Shown here: in pieces, positions 14,869-46,520 of the stretch | Layout of the letters: each line of letters opens with the position of its first letter | Position numbering within the stretch: the first letter of the stretch is position 1 | NCBI GenBank assembly: GCA_031256195.1 | Contig: JAIRRB010000142.1 | Location: 1-50,196, forward strand | Direction of reading: 5' to 3' | From: Treponema sp. | Lineage (GTDB): Bacteria; Spirochaetota; Spirochaetia; Treponematales; Breznakiellaceae | DNA: 50,196 nucleotides | Made by a program: the position numbers and the translations under genes | The notes under the pieces: model-generated | Database searches by the model: none | Told to the model about the DNA's origin: nothing | The model's input: only the letters and a program-made list of their open reading frames with translations

Positions 14869-17800
14869 CTAGAACCCTGTTGGCATAGCGGCCGGCTTGT
14901 AGAAGTAAGCCAGGCGGAACAGGTCGCTGGCGTAACCGACTGCCGCGTCCCAGGCGTAAGCCGCCCCGGTATTACGAGCGACCACTGCTCCGCCGCGGTT
15001 AATGGGCGGCCAGGATTCGATGTTCAGGCGGTCATTGTTGACGGTGAAAGGCGCCGGCATGGTCAGGGCTTCCCAACCGGTTATAAGTTGGCCGGGAACA
15101 AATGGGTCATTTAACGCCCTGCCATTAAACTGGCCCCGGTACGCGATGCGCACGCCGTCACGTTCCCCGGTACGGGTGGAATCCGCATACACAATGTAGG
15201 GATTGCCGTTTGAATCAACTGAAATGTCCGTCCAGGCGCCGCCCTGTACAACACTGTCAATGGCATAGACGGTAAAGGCGGTGGTTTTGGTGCCTACCGC
15301 ATAGACGACGATGTTCTTATTGCTGTTAAAGAAGGCCAGATGGATGTTGTTATTCCCGTCAATCCTCATGCTGACATAAGCGCCGGAACCGCGGCGCAGG
15401 GCATGGTTTTCCGAAATTACATAACGCCGCGTCCATTGGTCATTAGTTCCCGGATTGGGATTATTTCTGTCGGCATACGCCAGACGGAGCGTGTCATTTG
15501 TTTCATCGTAATACGCGATAACCGGATAACCGTTGGTATCATAGTCAATGGCGCTGTATTTGCCGGCCCGTGTTGATGTAGAGTTGCCACGTGCTGTAGT
15601 TCCCACATTTCCCCAGGTATTAGTATTGGCAATATTAGCTCCGACACCGGTACCGGCTGTACCGCCGCCGTCAAGGAAGTATTGACCATCTCTGGCGCCG
15701 ACATATCTGGTATAGAACAACCGGGCATACACCGCATCATAGGCGGAAATAAAGGCGCTTCCGGCATTAGTAGCGCTACCTGATACGGCGTTTTTCCTGA
15801 TTCGCGCGTTCTGCCAGCGGTCGGTTGCGGAAGGATTAACAGCATCCCCCAACGTAGGATAGGTAGCGACCGGAGGCCCTAAAGTACCGGTAGCATCATT
15901 ACCAGCTGATACCTGTGTTTTTATCCTCAGGGTAGCCGCCCCGTCATCCTGAGACGCCGCTACCACACTGGCGTTGTTGTTAGCGAAAGCGGCGCCGTTC
16001 CAGTAGTCAATGTCGGTATGCGAGAACGGCTCGGCATATCTCCCCAACAAAGTTCTGGCAGGACTGCCGGTGCTGCCGCCGGCAGTACCGTAATAGAAAC
16101 CGGCCAGACCATAGGTTGACCATGCTCCGTGGAGCGTACCTGCCCCGCCTCCGCCGGTGTTATACTGTAGCGACATACCCGGACTGTCCAGACCGCCTGA
16201 ACCGGTAAAGGACAGCGTCGGGTTACCGGTACTGGTAACCGGATCGGAGCGCCAAATATGGACATAGGGCTTGTTGACCCACAGATCGGAACCGGGGGTG
16301 GAGGGATTGTATTCCCTGTTCCACGATCTGGCGGTAACGGGAACGGTAACACCGCGGTTGTAATCCTGATTCAACGCAACGCCGGTGCCGCCGGTGCCGT
16401 TAACCGCAACGTTTATAGCGCCGCTGGCCGCCGCCGCGGGTACGGTAAAGGTATAACGCCTTCTGTCGGGACTTGCGGCATCATGGACATACGTCGGGGC
16501 TGCGGTATTGGTTCCACCTATGTTCACCGTAATACCGGAACTTGCGTTACCTGCGGTATTTTTGTTAATGCCCAAATTATATCCCCTAACAGAAATTCCC
16601 GCTTCGCCCTGATAGAAACTGTACCAGCCCTGCAAGGAACGTTTGGTGGTAAAATCGGGCGTTTTCCGCTCAAAGCCGATGATGTAGGGTACTATGTCAA
16701 CGGTTACCGTGTTGTGGAATTTGGTGTCGTCATCCGGTAAAGGAGTGCCGGAATAACCGCTGGATTCGACGGGATTAAAAACTAAATAACCCTGAGTTGT
16801 GGTATCCGTGCCTGCCGCGTTCAATGTTTGGGTACTGGAAAGGCCCTTGGCGCCGGATGGCTGGCCGCCGCCACTTATCATCTGCCCATGTATGTCTACA
16901 ACCTCAACCTGAATAGCCACACCATTCACCGGCAGAGCAGTGGCGCGGCCAGTGGCGGGTCGAATCTCGGTGTCCCAGACATAGGCCCATTCAACCGTAT
17001 GGCCGGTCTGCCAGTGCATTTTTTCAGACGCGTAAGCCTGCGTAGTTCCGACCGGCTGCATACTGCGGGACTGACCGGCGGTAAGCGGCGTTGTTATGGG
17101 GGGTGTCAGTTTGAGTATGGGTATGGCAGCATCACCGCCTATCTTGATTCTAATCTCGTCAATCAACTGATCATCCCAGGCAAGACCGCGCAAAATAACC
17201 TTGCCGCTGACTTTATCATTAATGCCTGCCCCGCCGGCGTCATTGTTTTGATAATTGTCGGCGGTAACAGTCCGCTGCCATCGCGGATTCTTAAACCAGG
17301 GCCTCATGGCGGTGGTATCGGTGCGGGGATCAATGTAACCGGAACGGACCGGATTATCTTCCGTGCCGGTGTTGAACAGGCCGCCGCGCAGGATGTTTTG
17401 TTCTATCTCCTGATTTTGCGGATCGGCGGCATTACGGATGGTTGCCGCGAGATTGGCCGCGGTGACATTATTGTCCGTTACCGCAAGCTCGGTGTAGGGG
17501 TTCAAATCGTAGAGCCGCGCAATGGGCGGAGTATAATCGGACAGGAATACATTCATGCCGATTACCACCGCGTCGTACAGCATATCATACTCGTCATGAC
17601 CCGGTTGGCCATAGCTCGTGCCGTTTACCGTATCCCATACCTTAATCAGGAAGTATGCCGTGTCAGCGGGGTCATCATACACAGTGCCCTGCACCGGACT
17701 GGCAGGTTTCAGCGGTTCACCCGGCTGACTGCCCCGTTTCTGGAGTATTCTGCCGGTGCCAAAGAAGGGGCCGGTAACACCGGAAGGAGGCGTATCAGCG

Positions 17801-20800
17801 GCATTATCCGAGAAGAGCAAATCTGTCGGAGGAATGTCGTCGCCCTGGTTGTATATACCCCTGATCAAATTCGGATCGACCCGCGTATAGCGCCAGACTT
17901 CGGCGTTCAGGTAATTCATACCGACTATATCAGCCAACTTCGCGGTAAATACAAAGTTGGCGCCTGCCTCAATGTCGCCATGGACGACGCCCAAAGCGGC
18001 CCAGGTATAACTGTCTACCCCTTTGGTGGTTTTAATGGTGTAGACATTACCGGCAGCCGCATCGCCAAAGCCGCCGGGGTCTCCCCAGCGTTCATTTGCC
18101 ATCTTTGCCAGATTGGCAGCGGTCAGAGGAATAGCCTCCCGGTTAACATATTCCAAACGGTAATTCAGGGGCGCGTTGCCGGACACGGTGCTAATACCAA
18201 AGCCAATAACCGTATTTTTGGAGATAAAGCCTGAATTCAGGTAGCCTGAGGAATAGATTCCTATGGGATACGTCGTCTTCGCTTCATCGCCATCATGGGT
18301 GCTAAAGGCCGCGCCTTCGCCCTTATTGTCAGTGAGCAGGGTTACGGTATTAATCCACGGATTCTTGTTCATGATGACCGTTTTCTGCTGATAGAACGAG
18401 GCGTTGCCCACGCTGTCAATCACCAGGTAGTTCAGGTATATCCAGCCGTCCGGCAGCACCGTCGTATCGGTGATAAAGCTCCATAAAATGTCATGAGCGC
18501 CGGTGGGCTGCCATGTTACCCTGTTCGCCATTATACCGCCTGTTGCATCGCTCAGTTCCTTTACATAATCAGCGGCGGTAAGGGGATTGGGATAGGAAAT
18601 GGACTGCGATGTCCCTTCGGTGATACCCGCGGGATACACCGCACCACTGCCGATTTGCTCGATAGCATCAGGTTTACTGTCATCGGTGTACTTGACTTCC
18701 GCAGAACGTCCGACATAGGCGTTCATGGTCGCGGGAGCGCCGACAAGAGGACTCCCGTCTTTCATGCTCAGGTACTGGGTGTGGTTTTCATCTTTGGTAA
18801 ACCACGCGTAGACCTTGTCTATCGAGCGGTAGCCTTCCATGGTTGACTTATAGTCCGGCCGGGGTGTGTTCGGCGAATTGAAGTAGTCAAAAACCCTGCC
18901 AATAAAGGATACATTGGTACCGGCCGCTTTTTTCGGCGTTATCAGTTTTTCTGTATCCGCCAACGGCGCAAAGTTGTCTACGCCCAGTTCAAAGGTATAG
19001 GTGTCTTCCCCCGGCGGAGAGTTATTATCCCGTATGCGTACATCAACCGTAAATTTACCGCCGGTTTTCTCAAAAGTATCACTACCTACTTTTACCCAGT
19101 CAGAAGCCGCTCCGGCGCCGGGTTTCGCCGTCAGCAGGGAGTCAAACTGGTAGGTTATAGTACAATTCCGGTAATTGTCGGTCGAATTTAAGGTAATACC
19201 CGGCAGATTCCGGTTTGTTCCTCCCACATAGGCATCCTGCCAACTCAATCCGTCCTGCATTCTCACGCTGATTTGATTTATCGAGGTATTGGTATCGCCG
19301 CTGTCCAGGTGCGCCCGGAAGGCAAATTGTCCTCTGCGTACAAAGGGTCTCTTGTTGTCACTGTCGTAATAACCGGGATACGGGCCAAAACTGGTCGTAC
19401 TGCCATGATTGCTAATCTCTTTGGTGTCTATTTTCGGCGCGGTGTTCTTGAGATAGAAGGCGCGTACATAGGGTTTGGGTGCATTCAAATTGGTACTGTC
19501 ACCCAGACTTAACAGGTTGTTAGCCGCGTAAGCAGGCGGATTCGCCGGGGGTGCAGTGGGATCGCCGTCAAGGACAAATATTTCCACATACACGCGGATG
19601 GTGTCATAGGGGCCGGAACCGGATTGCGAGAAACCTCGAAGCGGTATAAGGTCTTTAATTTCATCTTCGGCATTAATCATAAAGCTCCAGCCAACGTTCG
19701 GCGGGCCCTCCAGGTCTTCCATGGTAGCCCGGTACCAGCCGTTAAAGCCGCCGGAACCCAGGTTGGTGTTGTAATCGGAATTGGTAAAGACCGCATACTC
19801 ATACGGGGCGGTGACACTGGTCAATGATGGTAATGCTGGTTTTCCCAGAGTAACCAGAGAAGCGATAACCGGGGGAGCCAGAGCCTGAGCTTCAGTACCA
19901 TGCGTACTATCCGCAAAAACGCGATAGATAACGCTGCGGACGCTCTTGTTGTCGCTTGCTACGCCTTCGATGCTGATTGCGCCGCCCCGCGGATTATCGG
20001 TGGGTTTAACCGTACTGGCGGAGGGGTTGGTAATAACCGCGCTCGGATTGTCGCCATGGGGGTATATCCACAGATCGCGGCAGGTAAAGAATACATTGCC
20101 CACGTTGTCTTCCACACGAATCCACAGGGGCATACTGTACAGACCGCTCTTCTGGTACGCCAGGGGTATCTTGCTTTCATCAATTTTTTGTACCAGCCAG
20201 CGGCCAGTGCCTGAGGATGGATTGTACGATGTTCCATACATGGAAAGCGGTCCTGTATAATCTTTTATATCAGAAGTATTGGCAATATGCTTTATTTCCA
20301 GTTCCCAGTTGCGCAGATTGACATCCGCTGGATTCGTCGGCATAGAAGTAAATCCATGGGGAACATCTTTGTTGGCCGCATATTCAAACCAGGCATTGGC
20401 GGCAGTAGCTGTCGCGTAGGAATCGCTTATCTGCGCCTCCGTGGGGAATGTCAAATTACTGTCGGTACCGGTGCCTAAATAACCCAGGTGGTACCACAGC
20501 GACTTAACGCCGCTGGCGCTGCCGTTATCGCCGGTATCGTCGGTTATTCCCTTTATGGTATAATCGTCGCCGCCATAAATGGTTTCACTCGCGTACTGAT
20601 AGGGACTGCCAGGATGATTAGCAATAGCGGCAATAAACCGCGGGTCATCAATTCTGCCCGCCGGGTCCTTATTATCCAGAATTATCGTGCGACTCACGGA
20701 TTTATAACTACCCGCCAAATCGTACACGGTAAAGATGATATTATACGTGCCGTCTTTGCAAGCAGCGGGGTTAAAGGTAATGTTAACCGACGGATTCCAT

Positions 20801-23800
20801 GTAGTGTTGTTAAAACCGGTGTTGACAGGCGGGGTACCTACTACCGGACTACTGCCGACGGTTCCGCCGGTGGGCGATACCGCCACTTCCAGCCGGTCAA
20901 AACTGTTGAGGCTGGCGGCTGCTACCGTAAAGGGCAGATTATAACCAGGCGCGTTCTTCTTTGAAGAAAAATACTGGTCTGTAGAACCCGCATTATTCAG
21001 AGTAATGTCATCAGCGGCATAGAAGAAGTACACATAGTTAGATACCGCGGGGTTGCCATCGTCAGCGTTTGTCCAGCCGGCGCCTCCGCCTATTGTCGAG
21101 GAATCTTTTGCCCGTAACTGAATACAGTAGTATCCGTCAGTCAGAAGCGGGGCTGTTAATAAGGCTTTCAGGTCCAAATTCAATGAATACTCAGGCGAAG
21201 CCGCCAACGGCGGTACGACATTGGCCCAGTCAGTTGGGGCGCCGTTCCAGCCCGGAGTACCAAAGTTATAATACTGCCAGTTTCTGCCGACATAATTATA
21301 CTTCCTTATCTGGTACTCTACCGCGGTCAAATTGCTTAACGCATCGGAGACACGGCCCTGAATACGCGGCTGTGCGTCCCTGATGACATTCCGGGCGTTA
21401 TCAGTCCTCCATGATTCGGGAAGACGGTCGGTAGTGTTGGCAGTGGTGTTCAGATTGAAATCAAATTCCGGCGATGCGGGATCTATGATGAATGACCACA
21501 CAAATTCATTGGATTCATTACCGTATAAGTCGGATGATTTGGCAATCAGTTCATAACTGCCCGGTGTGAGTTTGCTGGAATCAACCGCGGCCTGATAGAG
21601 CATACCCCGGGTAATGTTCAATGTCCAGGGAATAGTCTCTATTACCGGCGACGCACCGGCGAAAGTCCATGTGCCTTCGGAAACAGTACCGGTAATGGTC
21701 GGACTGCCTGCCTTATCGGTATACCTGATAGACACCTCAACGCCCTTAATATTGGCGCTCTTTGCCGAACCGGTAACGCTCAAGACTGTATCGGTCGGCA
21801 GGCTTCCCTTATTGCCAAACACCGCAACGGGTACGCTTACATCGACCGTGGGCAGCGCGGAATTGAGCCTGAAACCAAACTTGGGACGGCTGGGATCGGC
21901 ATAAAGCTGGTTGCCCACCGAATCTTTGATGGTGAATTCAAAAGTGTGTATGCCGTCCGCCAGAATAGTCCCGCCTTCCAGACCGGTATCGGTTATATAC
22001 ACTTTCCAGCTTACATTTTTGCCGCTTCCGGCGCCAAAGGCCGCCAGAGGGCCTATCATGCTGCCGTCGTCAAACGCAAAGTAGAAACTGTTGGTATCAA
22101 TATCAGAAACATCATCATCAAAGGTTCCCTGTATAAAGGGTACGTCTTCTCCGTATTGAATAACCGTCAATTTCTTATCCTTCAGATAATTCCAGTTAGT
22201 GGTATACCACCCTGCAGTCCCATCCGGAACCGTTGAAAGCTCTTCTTCTTCAATATTGGTAAAGGTAAAAGTCGGCGGAGTATTATCTTTAATGAACAGC
22301 AGCGAAGCGGAACCTTCTTTGCCGCTCTTATCCTTAACGGTCAGGAACAGGGTATGGGGGCCCTGATCAAGATCGCCAAAATCATAAGAATCTGCACCCC
22401 AAAGTGTCGCCGCCGGTATGGTAAAGTCTACCGTTGTTTCACCGGCATTTGGGGTATCGTCGTGAATATGACCACCGGCGGTATTATTCGTTATCTCAAA
22501 GGTCTTTATGTTTTGAATATCGCTGTCCAGCCAATATCTGACATAATAGAAGTCGGGATTAGAGAGTGCACTATCCAAATCTTTTTTTTGCGCAAGGTTG
22601 GCATCCATTATGGTGCCGCTGACCGCAAAGGCCGCACCCGCAGAATCACCCGATGCCGGAAGCGTTATCTTAATTTCCGGGTCTTTGGTATCATACATAA
22701 AGGAGTATGGATTGATCAGCAGCGGTGATTGCGATGATACACGGGTGCTGGTATCGGGTTCCCCCTGCGTTCCGGTAGTAACAACATATTTGCCATACCA
22801 ACTGTCCGTTACCTCAATTTGATAATATTTTTGACCATCACTGGCAAATATATTTGATGAATATGAAGTTGAGAAGTAGTCAATTAAGTTTATGCTCAGG
22901 ATAAGGTTATTCCCCTGCCGCCTGTAGTTGCGTGTACTTCCGTTGGTTTCGGGAATAGGCACCCATGTTGCGGTACCCAAATCGCCGCTCGTTGTACTCA
23001 TCCGCACCCGTACCGCACCGGCCATGATGCCTGTTCCGTCTCCGGCTCTAAAGCCGTCATCTTCCTCGATGGTGCCGCGCAGTATGGCGGTCGAAGCGCC
23101 TTCTGTCGTATTGTTAGGGGTAATGTCGGCGGAGAAATAAGGCTTGTCCTGGTCTTGCAGGACGTAAATCTTTTGCAGTATAAACGGAAAGCCTGTAGCT
23201 TCTCGACATACATTACCCGCGGTATCCATCGCCGCTACATAGAGGTGATACTCCTTATTATCCGTTAATGCGGCAGTGTCTATAAAAATGCGCGTTGACT
23301 GGAAACCGCTGTTTAATTTACCGTTTCTACCGATGCCAGTCAAGGTACCCGTCGGCTGATAATTATCGAAATCACTAGTCGCCATTTGTGCCGGGGTATA
23401 TTTATCCGGCAGACTAAAATTGAGGCCAGGACTTTCAGGGAGCAGCCACCAGCGCACGGTGTTAACCTTAAAGTTATCGGTCGCATTGATGGTAAAGTAG
23501 ATTACCCCATTGGTCAGGCGTAACTTGTTATTCGTAACGCCATCAAAATCCGTACCGGTGGGGGTGGTAAGATTTACATCACCATAATTGCGTTCAAAGG
23601 TGGGTATTTTTTCCCGCAAATCAACGGCGGGCGGCTCGTTATCTACCTGATAACTGCGCGTTATGACGCTGGAGCGGCCAAAGCGGTCCTGCAATTCCAG
23701 AACAAGAACATAGGTTCCGGAAACACCAGGCGTCAAATTCAACCGTGCGGTAAAGCCTACTAACCATACTTCAGGTGATAATGATACGGAATCCAAAAAG

Positions 23801-26892: not shown

Positions 26893-26907
26893 TTTTTTAC
26901 CCTCCCC

Positions 26908-32900: not shown

Positions 32901-35900
32901 GAGCGGCAGACCCGGTTCCGATATAGAACGCCGCCATTTGAACGGGGCTATCGGTGAGTTTTGAGAAACTGCCGTTAATTATTACCCGTCCGGTTACGGC
33001 AGTATCGTTCGTCCTGAGGGGAACGTGGGGAGCGGTTATGGTCGGCGCGGTATTGTCCAGATTGAATTCGATTTTATCCTCGGCCGCCCGGCCCGCTCCA
33101 TCCGTTGCCGTGAGCGTCAGACTGTATTTATCGGATGGTGCGCCTCCCATACCGCTAATCGTTACCGTTACCGCGTATGTGAGAGTATTGGGATCATAGG
33201 CAGCAGGAGTCACGGTAACACTGCCCGCGGAGGGGCTCAGGTTCGCGCTGACACCTTTAATGCCGTTGGCATCTGTTACGGTATACTGAAATACAATGTT
33301 GCCGTCGGCGCCGCTATAGTAATCTTTGCGGGTAGTGAGCCCTGTTATATTCGGAAGAGTGCGGTCGATAAAGAACACCCGTCCATTGGGAGCATCAACC
33401 GTCTCATTCAAAATCAGCGCGTTCCCCGCCGCTTCCAGTTGATCATTGAGCGAGTAGTCGGTCGCATAGAGGTCCAGCCGGTACTTGCCTTCAGTGTTAA
33501 AGAGATTTGCCGGGTAACCGGTCAACGCGGCGTTATCCAGCGTCCATGACACTGAACTCTTTATGGTTTCGGGAGCAAGTAAATTGGGCCAGGAACTGTA
33601 ATTATTATTGGGTGTAGCCGTCCAGGTTGTACCGTTGTAATATTGCCATCCGGAATTTGTGCCCGCGTAATTCCACCGGGCAATACGGTACCGTATTTCC
33701 TTTACATTGGTGAAGTCTTCGACCATGCCCTGCAAGCTGATAGTCTGGTTCATCAGAGTCGAAGCCGCAGTCTCATTCAAATTATAGTATTTTACATCGG
33801 GCGGTGTACCGTCCAGAGAGAAACGCCAGCTTTCCCGGCTGGAATTCTTTCCCGCCAGGTCTGTCGCGACCACAACAATCTGGCGGCGTACGGCTTCTGA
33901 CGAGTCACTGACTAAAAGAGCCGCAAGATCGCCCTTGGTTACCTTGAGGGTCCATACATACACATTATTGGCATTGGCGGGCATCGCTCCTATGTTGCCA
34001 TACAAACCACCATCCTCTATTATCGCCTTTTTAAGGCTCAGGTTGCCGCCTTTATCGTACTCCGGAACAACATCAAAATCATTCTGGTCAATTTGGTCCA
34101 GCTTTTCCGAAACTTCGGCGTTTGTATCATTGGAGTTGGCGTAAATGCCGACGCTCAGGCTGGTCAGGTTATGCTCGTACACCAGGCCGCTCAGGAAAAA
34201 GGCGGGATTCGTGTCACCGGTAGTATAGCCGGAGGCGCTGAATACCCGTGTATATGCGTCTGCCATGACCAGTTGTTTGCTTCCGCTGCCCGCTGTTACT
34301 ACAAAGGCAGCCTCTTTGGACAGTTCGGGAGGAGCGCGGTCAACAAGAAAGACAACGAATTCTTCCCGCGTGTTGCCATAAGAGTCCGCCACCGTTATTG
34401 TCAGGGAATGTTCGCCGTCCGGAAAACCGGGATCATTGGGTATTTTAATTTCCCAGTTGGCGGTTTTGTCGGGCGTACCGCTATCGCCGAAGGTATTTAC
34501 GGTATTAATTAAGCCGCTATTGGGCAGACCTTTATCAAATTGATAGGTAAAGGTATTTGCTATATTGGAGTATTCATCGCGGAAATTACCCCTAACGGCA
34601 ACGGCGCTCGCTTCGCCCGAAATAATGCCGGTACTCATATTGGTAAAGGTAATAAGCGGCGGCGAGGTATCCTTATAGAAGGTATATTCAACACGGGTTT
34701 TTTGTCCCACCTGGTCAATCGCTTCAATGGCAATGCTCTGCATACCATCAGGCATGGATGAATGGCTAAAAGGCGCCAGCCAGGCGGAAACCAGATGCCA
34801 TCCGCCGGCGTAATTTTTGTCATATCTGTTGCCGACAGGAACATTATTCGGATTAACGGTTATCAGTTCCTGGTCTTTGACGGTCGTTCCGGTGTATGTC
34901 CCCGGAGTGTTATAGGTAAATTTAACGGATTCAAGGTATCCGTCCACCACATAAAGATCGTTAAGGTCTGCCAGCAGTTCCGCAGACGTTCCGTAGACCG
35001 GACGTTGAGAAGTATAGCCGTCATGACCCGGTTTAACGTCGTTTCTGGTAAAGTAGACCTCAGGCAGTTCTTTTTTAAGATAGAAACTATAATACCCGCT
35101 GGTGGGGAATTGCCGCTGAACCGGCCCAAGGGTGAGATTACCATCGGGGTTTTTTCCCGGGGGATCCGCGAATTTCAGGGGATTCGAGGGATTCAGATTC
35201 ACAGCGGCTACAGCCTCATCCGTTATGAGAATTTGGTAACGCTTTTCACCGTCTGTCGCAAAATAACCGCTAAAGTTATTGGTCTGCAAATTCAATACAA
35301 ACCTTATTTCCCCCATTGCGTCCGGCCCGGAAAGGGCAGCGCCGGAGAGGCCGGAGTTAATCGGTATCCAGTTACCCCAGGCGTTGTTGGTCCCGGACGC
35401 AAAACGAATCTGTATATAAGTACCGAGTTTGTCTTTGTCGAATCCGTCATCATCAAAAGCCTTACCCTCTATGACCAGACTCGTCGTTTCGCCGGATATG
35501 ACGGCGCCGTCATCGGGCTTTAAGGAGCCTTCGACCAGAACCGGCAAATCGCTGTTCTGATTAACGGTAAAGGTTCTCAGCGGCGGCGTCCCCGCCGTTA
35601 ACACGCTAAAGTTACCCGCTTTGTCCTGGGCGATTGCCCAGAGATTGTAGGTAGCATTATCGGCAAGATTGGTGGTGTTCAGAATAAACTGGTAATTTCC
35701 GCCGCCCTTGTTGTCGGTTGTTTTGAACCGGCCGCCCAGTCCGGCAGCGCCTCCGCCGGGGAATGGGTACGGCGTAACGGTAATTGTCCCGTCCGGGGCC
35801 ATAGTAGCGGTTGGGCGCGAAGCGGCTGAAGGCAGTATCCACCACCATACATTGGCATTAACGCCGTCATCCGCGATACCGTTCAAATCGGTCGCCATAA

Positions 35901-38900
35901 TGACGATGGGAACCTTGCCGTTTAAGATATATTGGTCTTCCTCGTTGGGAAGGCGGCCAAAGTTAAAAAACGATTCACTCAGTTCCACAGCGGGGGGCGT
36001 TGAGTCTACCTGTATGGTACGGTCGGCAATGCCGTGGGTGCCCAGGCTGTCGTAGGCTACCAGGTTAAAGGTCCGCCATTCAAATACGGTTGCTCCTGAC
36101 GCAAAAACAAGGTCATTGCCGAAATTGACGGCAGCGGGAACCGCCCAATCATAGACCCAATAGTTATCTTCGTCCAAGTCTAATCTGCGTACCATTGTCA
36201 GCGTAGGAGTAGCACCCCATGTCTGTAAAGAACTCGTGGTAACAACACCTGTGGAAGAAACAGAAGGCCATGCGCCCGAATCCATGCCGGGGCTAAAGGT
36301 AATCTCCAGTTTTGTAATTTCAAGCCGGCTCTTGACCGTTCCTTTAACTTCAATCGCTTCTTTATTTCTGGAGGAATTGTTTTCAATGCCAATAACATCT
36401 ATAACCGGCGCCTGGGACTGTACGGCAAAATAGAAGGTTTCTTCTTTTGACACTACCGTCGGCACATCGCCCGGCCGGCTGCTCTGGGGATATCGGCTTA
36501 TCCCTACCTTTACATCAATATTGTCCGTAATTTTAATCGTTAATACATAAAAACCGTCATACAGGTTTTTGGGCAGCGGGTCCTGCCCCTCATACATGGC
36601 CTCCGCCATAATTGCCTGGGTCAATGTACCGGACAATTCCAGACTGCTGCCGCTCTCCAAATAATCTTTGCCGTTCAGCGCCTTTTTTAAGAGGGCCAAA
36701 TTCTCGTCTTGTTTCAGATATACTTCTTTACCGCTGTTCAGGTCTTTCAGCGTTATTTCCACGCCGCCCTTGTTCATGCTAATCCCATCATCATCGGTAA
36801 AGGTCAATTCTATGCCCTGATCACTATCAAGGATATTTTGTTTAGTGGTATTGCCGCCTGTCGGGGCGCCTGTCAAATTATCATAGGTAATCAGCAGGTC
36901 ATCTTTGCCGGTTATTATCCCGTCGTTCTTAAAATCACCCCCCGCTACAACCATGCCGGGAATATCGGTTGAGTCATCCACACTGAGTTTCTGTACGATG
37001 TAGCCCAGATTATAGACCTTGTCCTGGGCGATTATATACAGCCACAGGTCTTCCCCATCCCATTCGTTGCTGTTTTTGAGAAGAGGTCCGCCGGAATCTT
37101 TCCAGGCGTTAAACTTAAAGTTGTGGGTCGTTTCCGGCCTTACCCAGCCGGATATCGGCGTCTCGCCGATATCGTTAAAAAATTGCAGGTTGTCCGCCGT
37201 GGGGTTCGCGCGGAAGGTTTCGAGTTTACTGATTATGTTACTGTTGTCAGCCGCATTGGGGGGCGCTTCCTGCACTATCCATTTGACTACCGGGATATTA
37301 TCATCCTCTGACGCTCTAATGCCCAATAAAGCGCCGCGGTCTACCGAAACCTGTATATTGCCGTTGACTATGTACGGATCATTATTAATCCAGGCGCCCG
37401 CACTCCCCGTGTTGCCTCCCGCCGGGTCCTCCGCCTGCCCTATCATGGAGCGTATGGTCGCTTCGGGGCCGGCTCCGTCTATATACAGAAGGTAATTCGC
37501 CACACCCACAATGCCGCTGACAGAATACGCCCGTACTTCCAGCGTGTAAGGATCGGAACTGCTGGTAAAAATCTTTCTATTAGTCACAGTGCCGTCATCG
37601 TACTCTTTGCTGTTGTCTCCGGTATAAACAAAAACATTGCCTATGCCCGTAAAATCGCCGGCGCTCCCGTTGTCCCAGTTCAGATTGCCGGAACGTCTCG
37701 CCAGCCCGGCCCCATGACTCCATGACAAGGTAGCATTGGCAATCCCGTCGGAATGCGCCGCCAGTATACGCAAGCGGAATTCATTTATTTTCATTGCCGT
37801 CGGCGCGTTTATGTAGATATTGGGATGCCTATCCAGTTCTGCCGGGGTTTTGTCGCTGTTATCCAGTTCAATTTCGGGAGGCTCGCCGGAACTGACCACC
37901 TGGAGGGAATAAAAGGGGCCCCTGTCCAGGGGTTCGGTGTCCGTATCGCGTAACACGGGATGCCAGCCGACCGCTTCCACTTCATCGCCTTCGGGCTCAC
38001 GGGGGAACATAAATGTATCCGAAGCGGGATCGTCATCAAAGAAGGTATCGGAGGTTTGTATTCTAAAACGGTACACTCCGGTCTCAAGGGGTTCGAAATC
38101 CCCGCTGGAAAGATCATACCGAATCTGTCGTGTGTCCGGGTCTATCGTGAATTTGGACAGTCTGAAAACAAAATTGGCGGCGCGCTCAACCGTCTGACTG
38201 TTACGATCTTTATAACTCCAGTTTTTGGCTTCATCATCAGTGGTGTCAACGCCGGAAAGGAACAGGACGGCCCAGCCCCATTCGGGGTCATCGCCTGCGG
38301 GTTCAGGCCACTCTTCCGGCCAAATTTTAATGCGGGGGTATCCGGGCTTAATGCCCCGGCGGTCGATTATTTGTCCCCGGACTTCCGTATTGGTCCCGAG
38401 TCTCGGCGGTTCAATATCACCTTCCAGTTTGGAACTGTCCGGCGCAGTCATTTTAACGATTGAAGGGTTGTTTTTAATGATATAGACCAGCTCTGCGGTC
38501 TTTCCCATATTGCTGGTGCGATTCGAGTCATATACCCGGAACTGTATTTTCAGGAAGCCGTCATCCAGAATCTGCCCGTTGAAATCCAGAGTGTTCAGGT
38601 CAAAGGTCCATGTTTTTTGCTTGGGATCGTCGCCTGTCATTTTTAGTTCGGGATGAGTCCCGTCATGCAGCGGCGGTAATGAATCATCTTCCTGGTTAAA
38701 TATTTTTACTTCTACCCGTCTCAGTTCACGGTAAGCGTTGACCGTTCCGCTGAAATGGACAACTCCTTTCAGATAGGAGCCTACGGACGGGTCGCCCAAT
38801 GTTATAGTCGGCGGTTCTATGTCAACCTTTCTCCCCAGATTGTTGCTAAAGGGATTTTCGCATGAGACGAATACCGCAAAAACCGCAATGGCGACCGCCG

Positions 38901-38937
38901 AAAAAAACAATGTGTTTTTCAGATACCTGGACAACAT
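26908..38937 (-). CDS. Giant (~4009 aa) Ig-like-repeat lipoprotein, tandem paralog of 14869..26892
   Basis: MLSRYLKNTLFFSAVAIAVFAVFVSCENPFSNNLGRKVDIEPPTITL (lipobox); serial Ig-like starts (VDSTPPAVEL, KDTSPPLITF, LDNTAPTITA...); shares collinear anchor motifs with the neighbouring giant gene. Confidence 0.9.
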   Translation of the reverse strand: MLSRYLKNTLFFSAVAIAVFAVFVSCENPFSNNLGRKVDIEPPTITLGDPSVGSYLKGVVHFSGTVNAYRELRRVEVKIFNQEDDSLPPLHDGTHPELKMTGDDPKQKTWTFDLNTLDFNGQILDDGFLKIQFRVYDSNRTSNMGKTAELVYIIKNNPSIVKMTAPDSSKLEGDIEPPRLGTNTEVRGQIIDRRGIKPGYPRIKIWPEEWPEPAGDDPEWGWAVLFLSGVDTTDDEAKNWSYKDRNSQTVERAANFVFRLSKFTIDPDTRQIRYDLSSGDFEPLETGVYRFRIQTSDTFFDDDPASDTFMFPREPEGDEVEAVGWHPVLRDTDTEPLDRGPFYSLQVVSSGEPPEIELDNSDKTPAELDRHPNIYINAPTAMKINEFRLRILAAHSDGIANATLSWSHGAGLARRSGNLNWDNGSAGDFTGIGNVFVYTGDNSKEYDDGTVTNRKIFTSSSDPYTLEVRAYSVSGIVGVANYLLYIDGAGPEATIRSMIGQAEDPAGGNTGSAGAWINNDPYIVNGNIQVSVDRGALLGIRASEDDNIPVVKWIVQEAPPNAADNSNIISKLETFRANPTADNLQFFNDIGETPISGWVRPETTHNFKFNAWKDSGGPLLKNSNEWDGEDLWLYIIAQDKVYNLGYIVQKLSVDDSTDIPGMVVAGGDFKNDGIITGKDDLLITYDNLTGAPTGGNTTKQNILDSDQGIELTFTDDDGISMNKGGVEITLKDLNSGKEVYLKQDENLALLKKALNGKDYLESGSSLELSGTLTQAIMAEAMYEGQDPLPKNLYDGFYVLTIKITDNIDVKVGISRYPQSSRPGDVPTVVSKEETFYFAVQSQAPVIDVIGIENNSSRNKEAIEVKGTVKSRLEITKLEITFSPGMDSGAWPSVSSTGVVTTSSLQTWGATPTLTMVRRLDLDEDNYWVYDWAVPAAVNFGNDLVFASGATVFEWRTFNLVAYDSLGTHGIADRTIQVDSTPPAVELSESFFNFGRLPNEEDQYILNGKVPIVIMATDLNGIADDGVNANVWWWILPSAASRPTATMAPDGTITVTPYPFPGGGAAGLGGRFKTTDNKGGGNYQFILNTTNLADNATYNLWAIAQDKAGNFSVLTAGTPPLRTFTVNQNSDLPVLVEGSLKPDDGAVISGETTSLVIEGKAFDDDGFDKDKLGTYIQIRFASGTNNAWGNWIPINSGLSGAALSGPDAMGEIRFVLNLQTNNFSGYFATDGEKRYQILITDEAVAAVNLNPSNPLKFADPPGKNPDGNLTLGPVQRQFPTSGYYSFYLKKELPEVYFTRNDVKPGHDGYTSQRPVYGTSAELLADLNDLYVVDGYLESVKFTYNTPGTYTGTTVKDQELITVNPNNVPVGNRYDKNYAGGWHLVSAWLAPFSHSSMPDGMQSIAIEAIDQVGQKTRVEYTFYKDTSPPLITFTNMSTGIISGEASAVAVRGNFRDEYSNIANTFTYQFDKGLPNSGLINTVNTFGDSGTPDKTANWEIKIPNDPGFPDGEHSLTITVADSYGNTREEFVVFLVDRAPPELSKEAAFVVTAGSGSKQLVMADAYTRVFSASGYTTGDTNPAFFLSGLVYEHNLTSLSVGIYANSNDTNAEVSEKLDQIDQNDFDVVPEYDKGGNLSLKKAIIEDGGLYGNIGAMPANANNVYVWTLKVTKGDLAALLVSDSSEAVRRQIVVVATDLAGKNSSRESWRFSLDGTPPDVKYYNLNETAASTLMNQTISLQGMVEDFTNVKEIRYRIARWNYAGTNSGWQYYNGTTWTATPNNNYSSWPNLLAPETIKSSVSWTLDNAALTGYPANLFNTEGKYRLDLYATDYSLNDQLEAAGNALILNETVDAPNGRVFFIDRTLPNITGLTTRKDYYSGADGNIVFQYTVTDANGIKGVSANLSPSAGSVTVTPAAYDPNTLTYAVTVTISGMGGAPSDKYSLTLTATDGAGRAAEDKIEFNLDNTAPTITAPHVPLRTNDTAVTGRVIINGSFSKLTDSPVQMAAFYIGTGSAAPSPAMPTVEQVKAVGSGWHYNTGGGADPWNLVVGGKTLAEIAPGTSSAVITLPNTRDFLTSSPNYLGPMTTITLGIPALTFNGASIPNGEEIYPLTIYYFAVDEAGNREVTPFTYYIYPEGDRPIVDKINSPKQDAPESERMLNGRIRIAGTAVDNVRVKRVWFRVLKAETETYATDIRIPEWNEETWEPAGNQNQTSQELFHNVAGVNTSLGIGWYKANGGGSSSVSWWAYINTEGELDPIFSNSAKITIEVMAEDTTWVDSIPPDGGWDPAMGLYSKKTSESSVYAYVVSGAPRFEDDMVLNPAVNGSSSSLGAGVWGSNVTTYMRGRSAYAVTVKHTQGVGSITWNGYDLLAANPYTTTTYGTHITAMSGGTYNANTNPGIAAKAGPKALITTGLTALDALTAARTFMIWTTSSAAAITDSASTILVPTNDNKRLTTFTLEQGRTVNVSSGGVTELMEMVDGYFEWIVVIDINANILEGGKYLGGAAYHDVELTATETSKVIPLKQEQTLNLPIDNLPPTGMYTHNGFVAGTDATFGGEAGDTGAVNGLSRVVLWFSRMINGTQTSFKWDGDTDAFNGSGTTLPDGSLAGVNVPVIPAESALTGGNDCIVIDRNDPMGQRTHHGHGLRMGFASGGSLGTSWYVTLDSTKMESGRVTAHYIVYDKAGNTKYYTQKLVIMNNVPRINRITLATDIRGDTGLGATLGAGNGRYVAMPGGGVTADGTPHMGAAPVSQIRTAVQGKLGLTAADPDTDKGISMAIPINTERLNAYGVVYDEAFTVRNNLLAVKVDLIDTVDENLKTWSKTKRTFRVEYVSGAVPITYNAGTRLLNVRAGRIYIINDPGANFPWGSYGLRVAEGDTARRGMAFMAVEDGANVTIQAGAYGTPSAWELNGSYYQTPADPFARTHPGTLGLPDVALKGGTPGNTTGAYSAEFMYGSNAFGTAAGTRITDFAPAFAPDDRPLPYPLAGVNPWVAHSLFIVKVFDGDEEELFGDFALLSIRVNNDDKTRPYAQLYDLNPKTEGQDTNVTQTAALQMNMGGNRIKGGLYNNGTVQVVEKSGHIEPRKNSIGGTNYVHTLTSGQMGGAATATAATMQKPLVDDAAIASFLNIDTVSGKVILRGYAEDDQRIHRIDLEFYNAANTGNRTDFVTILEFNNNTTANPAPFLRKGAALRGGDVEFTETVDLNRHRVEWAYLWDTEQLPATTLGGATGTVVGDITVRAVAYNANNATPKGSKDSNTHISHAYGTPATYTQANYNGVWDYYNPDFPLYDSRFALGGDNHYKFRRYNSMRINLRPYITGFKRNKNDFAHDTRSRQGRYMFAQSEVAVISGFNLGASGVTPTIGLPTANAGTYTNAINVGNITATAANNPYEVDMAAVSASRYRQFTVPAGAVTGNGKVAFTVSGYMAVNTGTERLAANSVRPVIQPWNTERSPGIAGSQLWDDFTMLHIWQSDDTHNTGTDRGRFDKTTNMIVKDPAMTINPANGTLYSSHSQAGGNQGGIDYSTNAATGMTRVAQFCDPIITSDIFISTNLTTVWTAHSIIGEQGGGTGWASKGGIFISGPRGGNAGLTSGLAATTNSDTVFNSQYLAESCSYNANANAPGTQSNPPALNQFLNPHIITYYDGTNEHIHVSYYDDKDGSMKYRYNRRGSPGTITGSAAGTATTAANSTAPYAWTNLDGGYDVDDQNAYNAANNTNWATGAGGGNRPANDFIGAIATNGRIVNWNTRTQTQGRGYNIDAGKHNAIALNRNGYPVIAYYDETNGKLKLAVSNGTTMPVAAASWKIRDNVIPRDNLNYNGTGQYVSMMIDTRGANDIIHIAALNSLNRNMVYIRGELYPVRGTSSQDDTTAAANNVLINVTVQVVDSVGSVGSWCKLSLDSQGNPWIAYKDESFRGSRDGVKVAYLDSAVFYKGGTSYFTGKDIDVWGQPITGWEAMNVPTYGRVEDASATVNTRLGMECYPARNYAGTPNPTTKFWAGAVGYLAPDYYRIAYYVK

Positions 38938-38997
38938 ATACTACCTCCGGGAGAAAATGGAGACACACCTCTTGCAATATACAACTATCCCATTATC

Positions 38998-39027
38998 ATT
39001 ATATAATAAGACATATTCAAAAATCAA
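38998..39027 (-). promoter_or_regulatory. Candidate sigma-70-type promoter for the giant-lipoprotein operon
   Basis: Minus strand TTGATT-N18-TATAAT, ~60 nt upstream of the ATG at 38937, with SD CCGGAGG near the start codon. Confidence 0.4.
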
Positions 39028-39059
39028 CATATATTTGCAAAAAAACCGAGGGTTTGGCT

Positions 39060-42000
39060 ATGAAAAAGACATTATGCTGCGTGGCGGCGTTTTTCTGCCT
39101 GGTAACGGCATTACCGGCAATGGATGCGCCGGCTTCCCCGGCCTGGGGCGCGGATGCCGTGCCGGACCTGTATGCCCCCAATCTGGCGGGGCCGGGAGCC
39201 TTTAGTACCAGTACCGGCGGGGCGCCAACAAGCGCGATTAACCCCGCTCAGGGGGGTGAAGCCCAGCGGATTGTCTTTGATATTGGCTATTTAGCCCTGG
39301 TGGGACTGGGTAATGAGGACAAATTCGGCAATGTGATGGAGGCGGGAGCCCTGTTTCCCACCCGTTACGGGGTTTTTGGCGGCGCTTTGCGGCTCATTCA
39401 AAGTCCTTTTAACGAATCTTTCCCGGTTCAAACGGTTCTTTCGGGAAATTTAAGCGCCGCAAAAGAGATTTACCCCCGTATGTCCCTGGGAGCGGGGTTA
39501 AATTTTGGCATTGGCAGCGCATGGATGTGGAGTCTTTCCGGCGATTTGGGTATTTTTTACCGTGTCGGCAGGGTTGGCCCCCTGGAAAACTTTACCTGGG
39601 CGGCGGTTCTGCGGGGCATGGGAAAAAGCTGGACACCCAGTTGGTTTACCCCGATGGGGGGGGTATCTTTCGATGTGCTGCGGATTCACGGCAAAGAAGG
39701 CAAAAAAGACCCCTTTGCGGTGAATACCGCGGTAGATATGAGCCTTCCTTCGATTATTTATTACCCCAACGCCGGTCTTATCCTGAAACTGGGTTTACGG
39801 GCGGAAATAGCGGAAACGGTCAAATTGTCTCTGTCCTGGCCGGGGGGTTCAGGGCTGAATACGCGCGAACTGCTAAACGGACAGGCGTTTAATCCCCTGC
39901 CCTCGGTGGGTTTGGGGGTTAATATTAATCTGCCGTCAGGCGGAAAACGTATCGCCGGCGGCAGATTGCCCACGGATGGGGAATTGGCCGTTGATACGGC
40001 CTATAAGCCCCTGTATGAAGGGGTTACCGCCCTGGGAGGAGGGGCCACCTGGACGGTGGGCATTGCCGATAAAAGGCCGCCGGTCATAAAAACAGGGTAT
40101 CCTGACCCGGCGGATGCCGCGTACCCGGTCTATTTTTCGCCCAATAATGACGGAAAAGCCGATTATTTGGAATTTCCCCTGAGTATTACCGATGAGCGCT
40201 ATGTGGAAAGCTGGGTATGGGAGATTCGTGACGGGGAAGGTAACATTGTCCGCACTTACCGGAACAAGGAACTGCGGCCTGAAACCCACGGCGTGCGGAA
40301 CTTTTTTGGCCGCTTGTTTGCCGTGAAAACCCAGGTTGATGTGCCGCCTGCGCTCCGCTGGGACGGAATTGGCGATTCGGGGGAACTGGTCCCGGACGGC
40401 AGGTACTTTTTCACGATTACCGCGGCGGATGATTCGGGCAATACGGGCAGTACCCCGGTGTATGAGGCGGTACTGAAAAACGCCCCGCCGGAAATCGCCG
40501 TTACGCCGCTCGATGACGCCCAGCGGGTATTCAGTCCGGGCGGGGGCGGCAGCAAGAACACGATTACCTTTGTCCCGAAAGGCACGGCTGAAGACGCCTG
40601 GGAAAGCGGCATATATACGACTGCCGGTGAAAAAGTGCGGACTTTCGCCGTTGAAAGCGGGAATCCCCAATCACGGGTCTGGGACGGCAAAGACGATTCG
40701 GGGGCCATTGTCGGCGACGGCGTGTATACCTACCGGATTGAGGCGACTGACCGGGCGCAGAATTACGCCGGGGCCTCTATGGAAAATATTATTGTCAATA
40801 CAATACGGCCGGTAATCAGCGTCTTTATCGCCGATCCCTGGTTCAGCCCCAACGGAGACGGCATTAAGGATACGGTTGCCATGAATCTGACCGTGCCGGT
40901 AAAGGAAGAAGTGACCGGCTGGACGATGCAGATAAAAGACCGCCAAAGCGTCACCGTTAAAACAATCCGCAGCGGGGAGGAAGGTTTTGCCAAAGCGACG
41001 CCTGAACTGCTGGCCTACAACGGCATGAATGACAGCGGGGCGCTTTTGGCGGAGGGCATATATTCAGGCGTATTGTCCGTAAATTATCTGAACGGCTATA
41101 CGGCAACGGCGCTTTCGCCTCCCTTTAACCTGAAAGTAACGCCGCCTTCGGCAAAAATTACCATGGACTTTGCCGCCTTCTCTCCCAACAACGGCGGCGT
41201 TCAAAGCGAAATGATTATCCGGCAGGAAGGTACCAAAGAAGAACTGTGGACCGGTGAAATAAAACGGGCCAACGCTCCCGCCGCTGAAAGGCCGGTGCGG
41301 AGTTTCCGGTTTAACGGAACGCCCCTGCGGGAACTGCGCTGGGACGGCTCAGGCGAATCGGGAACTTTTGCCGCAGACGGCGAATATACCTATGAGTTAT
41401 ACGCCATTGATCAGGCGGGCAACGCGGGCCGTTCCAACACCCTGCGCTTCCGCATGAGTACCGTTGACACGCCGGTTATGATTACTACCGATCTGCGGGC
41501 TTTTTCGCCTAACGGAGACGGGGTAAAAGACGCGATAAATTTAAATCCGCAGATACAGGTAAAGGAAGGCATTGTCAGTTACCGGGTTGAAGTGCAGGAC
41601 AACGCGGGGCGGGCGGTTCGTACTTTTGAAGGACAGGGAATGCCCCCCGCGGCAATAAGCTGGAACGGCAGAACCACGGCGAATACTCCCGCCCCGGAAG
41701 GCCAGTACAAGGCCCGTCTGGAACTGCGGTATGAACAGGGGAATCAGCCCAGCGCGGTCTCGCTTCCCTTTGAACTGGACATTACCCCGCCGAAGGGTTC
41801 GGTTTCGGCGCCGTACACCGCTTTTTCGCCTAACGGCAAACGCGCGGTCATTCCCTTTAATGTTAAAACCGAAGCCGATGATGAGTGGGAGGCGGTGATA
41901 ACCGGGGCAGGCGGCAGGCGGGTAAAGACCTGGAACTGGAAAGGCGCCGCGCCGGAAATTGTCTGGGACGGCAAGGACGCCGCGGGCAATGCCGCGCCGG

Positions 42001-43133
42001 ACGGAACGTATCAGTTGAGCCTGGAATCTACCGATTTGGCGGGTAACAGCGCCCGGTATAATGTACCCGGCCTCAGCCTGGACGCGCGGATTCCCCGGCT
42101 GATACTGACATCATCATCAACGGGCATAGCCCCGCGGGCGAACCAAAACACCGATCTGGTGCGTTTCGGCGTTATCTGCTCGTTGCAGGAAGGCATAGAA
42201 AGCTGGTCGCTTGAACTGAAAGACGACAAAGGCTCGGTGATGAGACGTTTTGCTTCACCGCCCCTGACCGTGCCGTCCAGTATCGGCTGGAACGGGCTGT
42301 CTGAAGGCGGCGGCATACGCGAAGGGCGCTTTACCCCCACCCTGACGGTTAACTACCTCAAGGGGGATGTGGCCACCGCCGAGACCGCCTCGATTCTGGT
42401 GCATGTGAGCGGGCCGGAACTTTCGATTAACTACCGCCCGCAATACTTCAGTCCCGACAATGACGGCGTAGACGATGAACTGTTTATCAGACTGGGCGCG
42501 AAAAGCCCCGCCCCTGTCGCTTCATGGTATCTGGAAATCCGCGAGCCGGTGCCGCCCCATCTTTTGTTCTACCGCATAGAAGGCAAGGGCAGCCCCGCCG
42601 AAACGGTCATCTGGGACGGCAGAAGCAACAAGGGCGAACTGGTACAGGCCGCCACCGATTATCCGGTGAAGTATTCGGCAACGGATATTCTCGGCAATTC
42701 CAGCGTTATGGATTCACAGATTGGCGTGGACGTACTGGTTATCCGTGACGGCAACCGCCTGAAAATACAGGTTCCCTCCATCGTGTTCAGGGAGAACGCC
42801 GCCGACTTTAACGGCATACCCACTGACCGTTCGGACAACAATGTCCGCGTCCTGCGCCGTATCGCCGACATTCTCAACAAATTCCGCGATTACAAGGTTC
42901 AGGTGGAAGGACACGCCAATCCGGTACAGCGAACCGAGCGGGAAGAACGCAGCGAATTGCAGCCCTTAAGCGAATCGCGGGCGCAAACCGTTGTTAATAT
43001 GCTGATAGAATTCGGCGTTGCCCGCGGACGGCTTTCCGCGACAGGCATGGGCGGCTCCAAACCGGTAGTACAATACGAAGACCGCGACAACTGGTGGAAG
43101 AACCGGCGGGTGGAATTTATTTTGATTAAGTAG
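39060..43133 (+). CDS. Outer-membrane barrel-like N-terminus + FSPNGDG/FlgD-Ig-like repeats + C-terminal OmpA peptidoglycan-binding domain
   Basis: Track ORF 38862; likely start ATG at 39060 (MKKTLCCVAAFFCLVTALPAM signal peptide). Repeats YFSPNNDGKADYLEF, WFSPNGDGIKDTVAM, AFSPNGDGVKDAINL, YFSPDNDGVDDELFI, each followed by WDG...DGxYxY. C-terminal YKVQVEGHANP...LSESRAQTVVNMLIEFGVARGRLSATGMGGSKPV...NRRVEFIL. Confidence 0.9.
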   Translation: MKKTLCCVAAFFCLVTALPAMDAPASPAWGADAVPDLYAPNLAGPGAFSTSTGGAPTSAINPAQGGEAQRIVFDIGYLALVGLGNEDKFGNVMEAGALFPTRYGVFGGALRLIQSPFNESFPVQTVLSGNLSAAKEIYPRMSLGAGLNFGIGSAWMWSLSGDLGIFYRVGRVGPLENFTWAAVLRGMGKSWTPSWFTPMGGVSFDVLRIHGKEGKKDPFAVNTAVDMSLPSIIYYPNAGLILKLGLRAEIAETVKLSLSWPGGSGLNTRELLNGQAFNPLPSVGLGVNINLPSGGKRIAGGRLPTDGELAVDTAYKPLYEGVTALGGGATWTVGIADKRPPVIKTGYPDPADAAYPVYFSPNNDGKADYLEFPLSITDERYVESWVWEIRDGEGNIVRTYRNKELRPETHGVRNFFGRLFAVKTQVDVPPALRWDGIGDSGELVPDGRYFFTITAADDSGNTGSTPVYEAVLKNAPPEIAVTPLDDAQRVFSPGGGGSKNTITFVPKGTAEDAWESGIYTTAGEKVRTFAVESGNPQSRVWDGKDDSGAIVGDGVYTYRIEATDRAQNYAGASMENIIVNTIRPVISVFIADPWFSPNGDGIKDTVAMNLTVPVKEEVTGWTMQIKDRQSVTVKTIRSGEEGFAKATPELLAYNGMNDSGALLAEGIYSGVLSVNYLNGYTATALSPPFNLKVTPPSAKITMDFAAFSPNNGGVQSEMIIRQEGTKEELWTGEIKRANAPAAERPVRSFRFNGTPLRELRWDGSGESGTFAADGEYTYELYAIDQAGNAGRSNTLRFRMSTVDTPVMITTDLRAFSPNGDGVKDAINLNPQIQVKEGIVSYRVEVQDNAGRAVRTFEGQGMPPAAISWNGRTTANTPAPEGQYKARLELRYEQGNQPSAVSLPFELDITPPKGSVSAPYTAFSPNGKRAVIPFNVKTEADDEWEAVITGAGGRRVKTWNWKGAAPEIVWDGKDAAGNAAPDGTYQLSLESTDLAGNSARYNVPGLSLDARIPRLILTSSSTGIAPRANQNTDLVRFGVICSLQEGIESWSLELKDDKGSVMRRFASPPLTVPSSIGWNGLSEGGGIREGRFTPTLTVNYLKGDVATAETASILVHVSGPELSINYRPQYFSPDNDGVDDELFIRLGAKSPAPVASWYLEIREPVPPHLLFYRIEGKGSPAETVIWDGRSNKGELVQAATDYPVKYSATDILGNSSVMDSQIGVDVLVIRDGNRLKIQVPSIVFRENAADFNGIPTDRSDNNVRVLRRIADILNKFRDYKVQVEGHANPVQRTEREERSELQPLSESRAQTVVNMLIEFGVARGRLSATGMGGSKPVVQYEDRDNWWKNRRVEFILIK

Positions 43134-45741: not shown

Positions 45742-46520
45742 TAAAGCGCAACAATGCCTTTGGCTATCAATTTGGCCAGGGTGAATCTTCGTTCCATGAC
45801 CGCCCCCGCCGCGGTATCCAGAAAATTTTCAAGTTCAGCGGAAAAGGATACAGGCAGTACCGGCAATTCCAGAACCTGCCGGTAATAGGCCCGGTGCGAA
45901 GGCTCAAAACGGCGGTTAATGCAAAACAAAACAAGGCAGGCGGTCTTGATGAAACCGGCTGACGCTATCAGGTAGTGGAACTCGTCGCCCTGAAAAGAAG
46001 CCGCCCCCAAATCGGAAAGAAAATGTTCCATTTTCGACTGGGCCGCCCCGCGCATGTTTTTCCAGAATGTGTCCCCGATATGCGCGAGACGTTTTCGTAT
46101 ATCGTGTATCCAGTTACTGCGGGAAAAAACAATCTCCCCGTTGGCCAGCCGGTAAAAACCATAGGTCCCCGAATCTTTAATCAGCCACAGGGAATCCAGT
46201 TTGGTATCGGCAATGGATACCAGTTCTTCTATTTTTTCAATAAATTTATATTCCAGCCGCACCGGAATATCGCCGATGAGAAACCGGTCCTTTTCGTTTT
46301 GGCCGGAACTTTCAAAAGCCGCCGCATCGCTGCCGTAAATCTGGCACCGTTCCTGAGCATGGGGAATGGGGCCGGAACAAAAGACATCGAGGATCAGGGC
46401 AAAGTACGGGTCTAAAATATCCGGCATAGCCGCCTCGTTCAGGGTAATGCACTCGACGCCGGGCCATTGGGAAAGAATGCCGGCAAAACGCTCAACCATG
46501 ACACCTGTTTGGTATTTCAT
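45741..46520 (-). CDS. Conserved-looking hypothetical, possibly nucleotidyltransferase-like
   Basis: Full-length ORF coupled to the downstream lipoprotein gene; DPYFALILDVFCSGPIPHAQER is suggestive but not decisive. Confidence 0.6.
   Translation of the reverse strand: MKYQTGVMVERFAGILSQWPGVECITLNEAAMPDILDPYFALILDVFCSGPIPHAQERCQIYGSDAAAFESSGQNEKDRFLIGDIPVRLEYKFIEKIEELVSIADTKLDSLWLIKDSGTYGFYRLANGEIVFSRSNWIHDIRKRLAHIGDTFWKNMRGAAQSKMEHFLSDLGAASFQGDEFHYLIASAGFIKTACLVLFCINRRFEPSHRAYYRQVLELPVLPVSFSAELENFLDTAAGAVMERRFTLAKLIAKGIVAL

Follow-up and report, generated by a model that had tools for sequence, protein, structure and literature searches.

OmpA of Escherichia coli and Acinetobacter connects the outer membrane to the cell wall, and carries a membrane barrel and a wall-binding OmpA-C domain in one chain. 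SlpA of Deinococcus, which works across a wide periplasm, has an outer-membrane barrel and a domain that binds the wall, with a long spacer in the periplasm between them; its spacer is a coiled coil, its wall-binding domain is of the SLH type, and its barrel is C-terminal and 30-stranded (PMC9388160). For Lpp of E. coli, a small covalently attached coiled coil, the length of the link between membrane and wall has been shown to set the width of the periplasm (PMC5736177). Tp0624 and TP0292 of Treponema pallidum have treponemal OmpA-C domains without a barrel or an array of immunoglobulin-like (Ig) domains (PMC5104382, PMC8407342), and LigA and LigB of Leptospira are surface lipoproteins with Ig arrays and a lipobox near the N-terminus (PMC7821625). 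We have analysed a locus with features of several of these systems. It lies in a 50,196-nucleotide stretch of Treponema sp. DNA (the window; class Spirochaetia, order Treponematales) and consists of two genes for giant lipoproteins, P0001 and P0002, divergent from a gene for P0003, a protein with a predicted outer-membrane barrel, Ig repeats and an OmpA-C domain (Table 1). We refer to P0003 as the tether, as it is probably a fixed-length link from the outer membrane to the cell wall. A sequence-only reading had proposed the three genes as a candidate surface-structure locus of about 28 kb. Our favoured explanation, in which we have reasonable though far from full confidence, is that the locus joins two envelope modules, a tether or ruler and a pair of giant lipoproteins.

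P0003 resembles OmpA in its overall plan, but has a 14-strand FadL-like barrel where that of OmpA is 8-stranded, eight Ig repeats inserted between barrel and wall-binding domain, and GHAN in place of the TD that coordinates diaminopimelic acid (DAP). It differs from SlpA in that the spacer is made of Ig repeats rather than coiled coil, the wall-binding domain is OmpA-C, and no SLH domain is among its Pfam matches. These matches comprise six to FlgD_ig, two stretches of CHU_C and a C-terminal OmpA domain (PF00691, E = 2e-12). The C-terminal sorting domain of CHU_C type IX secretion substrates is absent from P0003: the CHU_C and FlgD_ig matches are internal, and the protein ends in OmpA-C. An AlphaFold model of residues 1–381, made with 34 orthologues, has 14 long strands and an N-terminal helical hatch, with a mean predicted local distance difference test score (pLDDT) of 86. 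When this model was searched with Foldseek, FadL came first (E = 9e-7), and a type IX secretion system assembly chain, 8gl6_F, which we take to be PorV, matched with a template modelling (TM) score of 0.51. A search of PDB sequences with a profile of the barrel gave no useful match. At residues 61–63 of P0003, Asn-Pro is invariant among orthologues and Ala is present in more than 90%; Asn-Pro-Ala (NPA) is the FadL hatch motif reported for treponemes, which possess several FadL-like proteins (PMC8407342). P0003 thus has the 14-strand barrel, N-terminal hatch and NPA motif of FadL and PorV barrels, and adds to them a fused Ig array and an OmpA-C domain.

The sequence-only reading had proposed an outer-membrane barrel with an OmpA-C domain, and these predictions bear it out. 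It had also assigned extracellular-type Ig folds to all three proteins. Pfam indeed finds Ig domains in all three, but the array of P0003 is flanked by an even-stranded barrel on one side and a wall-binding domain on the other, and its repeats must therefore, on the modelled topology, face the periplasm. An Ig repeat is about 4 nm long, so that eight repeats, if extended, would form a rod of roughly 30–35 nm.

The OmpA-C domain itself departs from the canonical form. Canonical domains hold DAP through the motif TD(x)7NxxLSxxRA; in treponemal walls, and those of most spirochaetes, ornithine replaces DAP, and the Asp of the DAP site is lost in Tp0624 (PMC5104382). In 18 aligned tether copies of the class the motif is GHAN (GHSN once), and the canonical DAP-coordinating Asp is thus missing. 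Outside the class, GHTD is found in most readable tether copies, and one copy from family f18 has GHAN. The LSxxRA and NRRV motifs are conserved across the aligned orthologues. Such a pattern of GHTD and GHAN would be expected if the wall is still read by the domain. As judged from its motifs, the domain of P0003 appears compatible with an ornithine wall and may work like OmpA-C, which is not to claim an identical ligand.

Tethers are widespread. A full-length search found them in 77 of 80 relatives, some matched by the OmpA-C part only, and among good genomes a more specific query recovered them from 158 of 180 in the order and 145 of 230 in the phylum. No tether was found in G058 (inferred to be of T. 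pallidum type), in family f7 (Borrelia-type) or in family f13. One family often encodes the barrel and the Ig-OmpA part of the tether in two separate genes. We found no description of the tether family in the literature searched, whose coverage was partial.

Repeats were counted with a model built from P0003 and with a separate model for each repeat position. Exactly eight, the usual number in the family, were present in 39 orthologues, split forms included, and each repeat matched its own position in a leave-one-out comparison of 13 proteins (104 of 104). A 4-repeat form, consisting of positions 0, 1, 6 and 7, is carried by a clade of the window's genus. Twelve repeats were found in L280 (G051), L287 (G550) and L288 (G193), by way of duplicated inner blocks. 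Within family f4, one sub-clade has 16 repeats and in a single case 20 (L267, G147), the ends being unchanged and the inner pairs multiplied; the 16- and 20-repeat forms occur only there. Throughout, both ends are kept while inner blocks are gained or lost. In a tree of 103 copies, the repeat number is 4, 8, 12, 16 or 20 in each of the 70 uncut copies that belong to the class, and six independent changes can be placed (three from 8 to 12 and one each from 8 to 4, 8 to 16 and 16 to 20), all of them multiples of four. By a rough argument, had the steps been merely even, the chance of this would be near 1 in 64. When odd-length homologues were sought, copies with 5, 6 and 7 repeats were found in other classes (L300, L301, L302, L291, L290). 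We therefore restrict the rule of multiples of four to the class and do not extend it to the phylum, and the simpler proposition that only 4, 8 or 16 repeats occur everywhere was rejected, being broken by these copies and by those with 12 and 20 inside the class. Two tether genes, L282 (G110) and L285 (G114), are split by a frameshift or assembly error and have 4+4 and 11+5 repeats, summing to 8 and 16. A second tether copy is present in G000, the genome of the window (C182:2453-4202, L079); it groups 100/100 with the 4-repeat clade and has the same ABC-454aa neighbours, but is cut by the contig end, so that its repeat number is not readable, and may be a contaminant.

Numbers in fours might simply be a by-product of recombination within the array, inner blocks being duplicated without functional constraint. 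The repeats alternate in type, so unequal exchange would yield even steps, the changes number only about six, and other classes have 5, 6 and 7. Even steps, however, predict 6, 10 and 14 repeats about as often as 4, 8 and 12, and none of these was seen in the 70 uncut copies; eight repeats have, moreover, been retained over 38–40% identity. We regard recombination alone as a serious possibility that falls short of an even chance. Repeat constancy also bears on the idea that the tether is chiefly a FadL-like transporter, in which the Ig-OmpA part merely fixes the pore to the wall and length plays no ruler role. The FadL-type fold, the hatch and NPA motif, and the presence of several FadL-like proteins in treponemes (PMC8407342) speak for such a function, but a passive linker needs no such constancy as the eight position-specific repeats held across the class, even where the barrel is encoded by a separate gene, and we consider this explanation improbable.

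The longest forms coincide with a loss of flagella. FlhA (PF00771) was found in none of 18 genomes of the long-form f4 sub-clade, whose tether copies are complete or cut by contig ends, as against all 11 other f4 genomes tested. Every sampled member of this flhA-less branch has a spacer of twice the usual length or more. By inference f4 is probably Rectinemataceae, and Rectinema strains are rod-shaped and non-motile, without flagella (PMC6052044). Family f13 has neither FlhA nor tether. As these represent about two events, the f4 sub-clade and f13, the correlation of the tether with flagellar loss is suggestive.

How the outer membrane of spirochaetes stays evenly spaced over flagella that rotate beneath it is, to our knowledge, not yet settled. 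A ruler role for the tether is plausible, because the width of the E. coli periplasm is determined by the length of Lpp; Lpp is a candidate analogue of the tether, the latter as a giant non-covalent Ig rod. The FadL/PorV-type barrel would hold P0003 in the outer membrane, the eight Ig repeats would cross the periplasm as a rod, and the OmpA-C domain, adapted to ornithine-type peptidoglycan, would grip the wall. The number of repeats would then be a molecular ruler fixing the distance between outer membrane and wall in the gap that houses the flagella. Within the class this ruler would change in steps of four only, and would shift on flagellar loss, the rod being at least doubled or the protein lost; a second ruler, of eight repeats, would in the window's genus work with the pair of giant surface lipoproteins. 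We put this joint reading forward tentatively, and it is somewhat doubtful as a whole. Weighing against a ruler role are the 5-, 6- and 7-repeat copies of other classes, the probability that the long form and flagellar loss are a single evolutionary event, and the flagellated Borrelia-type and T. pallidum-type genomes that have no tether, from which it follows that periplasmic flagella can do without it. The most interesting result of the analysis, one that the sequence-only reading had not seen, is that tether length is constrained, and the ruler is the novel part of its interpretation.

The two giants form the second module. Lipobox cysteines are present at C65 of P0001 and C26 of P0002; a short stretch follows, and then GLG-x-x-VD-x-x-P or a close variant, an arrangement common to giants of 2100–6200 amino acids across the order. 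Together with the signal peptide of P0003, these lipoboxes agree with the earlier assignment of export signals to all three proteins. The Pfam matches of the giants are Big_13, Big_3_3 and Y_Y_Y, with none to Big_2, the repeat type of the Lig proteins; the giants further differ from LigA and LigB in their far greater length and in the predicted propeller tip. Counting of motifs gave 24–36 boundary-like sites, which is unreliable as a number of Ig domains. The last 630 residues of P0001 were modelled as an IPT-like domain and a β-propeller, with a pLDDT of 75 overall and mostly above 90 in the last third. This tip was structurally closest to lectins of Photorhabdus and to sialidases (E values from 2e-8 upwards). 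Propellers of other giants (L074, L141, L145, L065, L062 and L069) have inserts like biotinyl/lipoyl-type barrel-sandwich motifs (GDVI...AP.DGTI), which are absent from P0001. Giant C-termini were found in 12 of 80 relatives; across the order, 34 of 180 good genomes and 19 of 83 genera have homologous tips. In the tree, tips of P0001 type group apart from those of P0002 type, and the pair is therefore an old duplication.

Elsewhere, in many families across the order, the giants adjoin a protein of about 340 amino acids (A) and an Ig protein of 1000–2400 amino acids (B). Considered as a candidate solute-binding protein, A gave weak matches to SBP_bac_8 in two of 12 members (E = 0.005). Protein B, present in 29 of 41 good relatives, has a conserved C-terminal domain, and its aromatic terminal residue and conserved 165-residue end suggest that it may finish in an outer-membrane barrel; a PDB profile search for this barrel gave no match. 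In G000, A-B-B lie on contig C25 without giants, which is why the sequence-only reading of the window could not see these usual partners. Contig C34 of the same genome (L171:1-8691) encodes two more Ig lipoproteins (1258+ and 1634 amino acids), followed by a B protein. In two T. denticola-like genomes (L182:2220-13346 of G050 and L183:1586-12589 of G053), a 2100-residue lipoprotein adjoins a 1556-residue B, so that the giant-B pair exists in oral-type treponemes too. G082, inferred to be T. primitia, encodes giants of 6174 and 5717 amino acids (L130/L129 and L131), one with A and B and the other near the tether. An electron cryotomography study of T. primitia reportedly found surface bowls, arcades of hooks and fibril tufts, and the G082 giants are candidates for such surface structures.

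P0001 and P0002 would most likely be anchored in the outer membrane by their N-terminal lipid, with a long Ig rod directed outwards and a glycan-binding propeller at its tip; their genes in most relatives accompany that of the 340-residue protein, presumed to be a membrane protein, and that of an Ig protein possibly ending in an outer-membrane barrel. Two points count against this picture. The propeller match is one of fold class (TM 0.6 on the target) and not proof of sugar binding, and the surface location is uncertain, as treponemal lipoproteins are mostly periplasmic (PMC7521688). The giants might thus be structural rods within the periplasm, for example an inner coat or filament of a widened periplasm, and not surface adhesins. 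The Ig arrays of B lie N-terminal to its putative C-terminal barrel and would hence face the periplasm, and termite spirochaetes have coats beneath the outer membrane (PMC13067680). Set against this, thousands of residues with a tip of lectin/sialidase fold are typical of outward-facing proteins, and we think a periplasmic location of the giants rather unlikely.

The arrangement of the two modules was compared across genomes, as the sequence-only reading had suggested for spirochaetes. The head-to-head tether and giants are kept in three species of one genus (G000, G026 and G011), even though identity between the giants has fallen to about 33%, and in G082 the tether has a giant two genes away, in another orientation. 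In the window's genus the 8-repeat tether adjoins giants wherever the contig is long enough (three genomes), and 4-repeat copies never do. Beyond this, tether and giants are not conserved together: the tether mostly occurs without giants, and G035 and G013 have giants without a long tether. Two contigs of G011, C71 and C8, have ends compatible with an order tether-giants-A-B-B, but do not overlap, and no such join is claimed.

These data bear on the proposal of one surface complex, in which the barrel-Ig-OmpA protein would be a dedicated anchor or exporter of both giants. Its support comes from the head-to-head order kept despite strong divergence, from the nearby giant of G082, and from the 8-repeat copies of the genus being found only beside giants where the contig suffices, with the 4-type copy of G000 elsewhere. 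Yet the tether lives mostly apart from giants, the giants are usually beside other genes, and tether-adjacent pairs, considered as a lineage of their own, form no group in the giants' tree. We reject a single obligate three-gene system on the distribution (77 against 12 of 80 relatives). This distribution and the different usual partners therefore argue against one obligate 28-kb machine, and the periplasmic position of the tether repeats argues against the three proteins forming one surface structure; we judge the single complex quite unlikely. Under the two-module explanation, the giant pair of the window's genus would have come, or continued, to lie head-to-head with a tether paralogue of eight repeats, shared expression being the probable reason, and the kept adjacency makes a local functional tie of tether and giants possible in this genus.

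The window is the entire contig C112 of draft genome G000, an assembly of 2.47 Mb that is 81% complete and 4.6% contaminated. Related Treponema metagenome-assembled genomes are, where recognised, presumably of termite-gut origin. The open reading frames of the giants, 15 bp apart and divergent from the third gene, are real, and the divergent promoter region of about 120 bp that had been proposed was found as a gap of 122 bp between start codons; counting both strands, it has five sigma-70-like sites where 0.7 would be expected. The longest reading frame of P0003 begins at 38862; the plausible start is at 39060, which gives the signal peptide MKKTLCCVAAFFCLVTALPAMDA. Neighbouring genes are ordinary: to the left lie those for a UvrD-type helicase, a PIN-domain protein and tRNAs, together with murE, and to the right those for TatD, NUDIX, TPR and MreB. 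At 44038-46520 two genes without a Pfam match (567 and 259 amino acids) are adjacent, as they are in G011 (55% and 77% identity), where they lie away from the tether.

Table 1. Features of the tether–giant locus, in window coordinates
Feature	Position	Strand	Description
Giant 1 (P0001)	14869..26892	-	4007-aa lipoprotein; Ig-type array, C-terminal IPT-like domain and predicted β-propeller
Predicted β-propeller tip of giant 1	14902..16278	-	lectin/sialidase-like fold
IPT-like domain before giant 1 propeller	16375..16686	-	weak match, E = 0.11; also in structure model
Giant 2 (P0002)	26908..38937	-	4009-aa lipoprotein; giant 1 paralogue, located 15 bp upstream of giant 1
C-terminal tip of giant 2	26911..28809	-	homologous to giant 1 tip
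Divergent intergenic region	38938..39059	.	122 bp; promoter-like sites at 39027..38998 (-) and 38978..39007 (+)
Tether (P0003)	39060..43133	+	1357 aa; signal peptide, predicted FadL-like barrel, 8 Ig repeats, OmpA-C
Predicted 14-strand FadL/PorV-like outer-membrane barrel	39270..40058	+	aa 71-333; helical hatch before barrel, invariant NP(A) motif at aa 61-63
Eight FlgD_ig/CHU_C-type Ig repeats	40113..42752	+	aa 352-1231; positions 0-7 conserved individually
OmpA-C domain	42846..43091	+	GHAN...LSESRA motif; Asp-to-Asn at DAP-coordinating position

Splitting the locus into two modules corrects a plausible but wrong reading of it as one machine. Termite-gut spirochaetes have surface coats, fibrils and arcades that are unexplained, and for these the giant module supplies candidate genes. 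The tether, found across the phylum and varying naturally in length (4, 8, 12, 16 and 20 repeats, some tied to flagellar loss), makes the spacing of the outer membrane directly testable by electron cryotomography without genetic tools.

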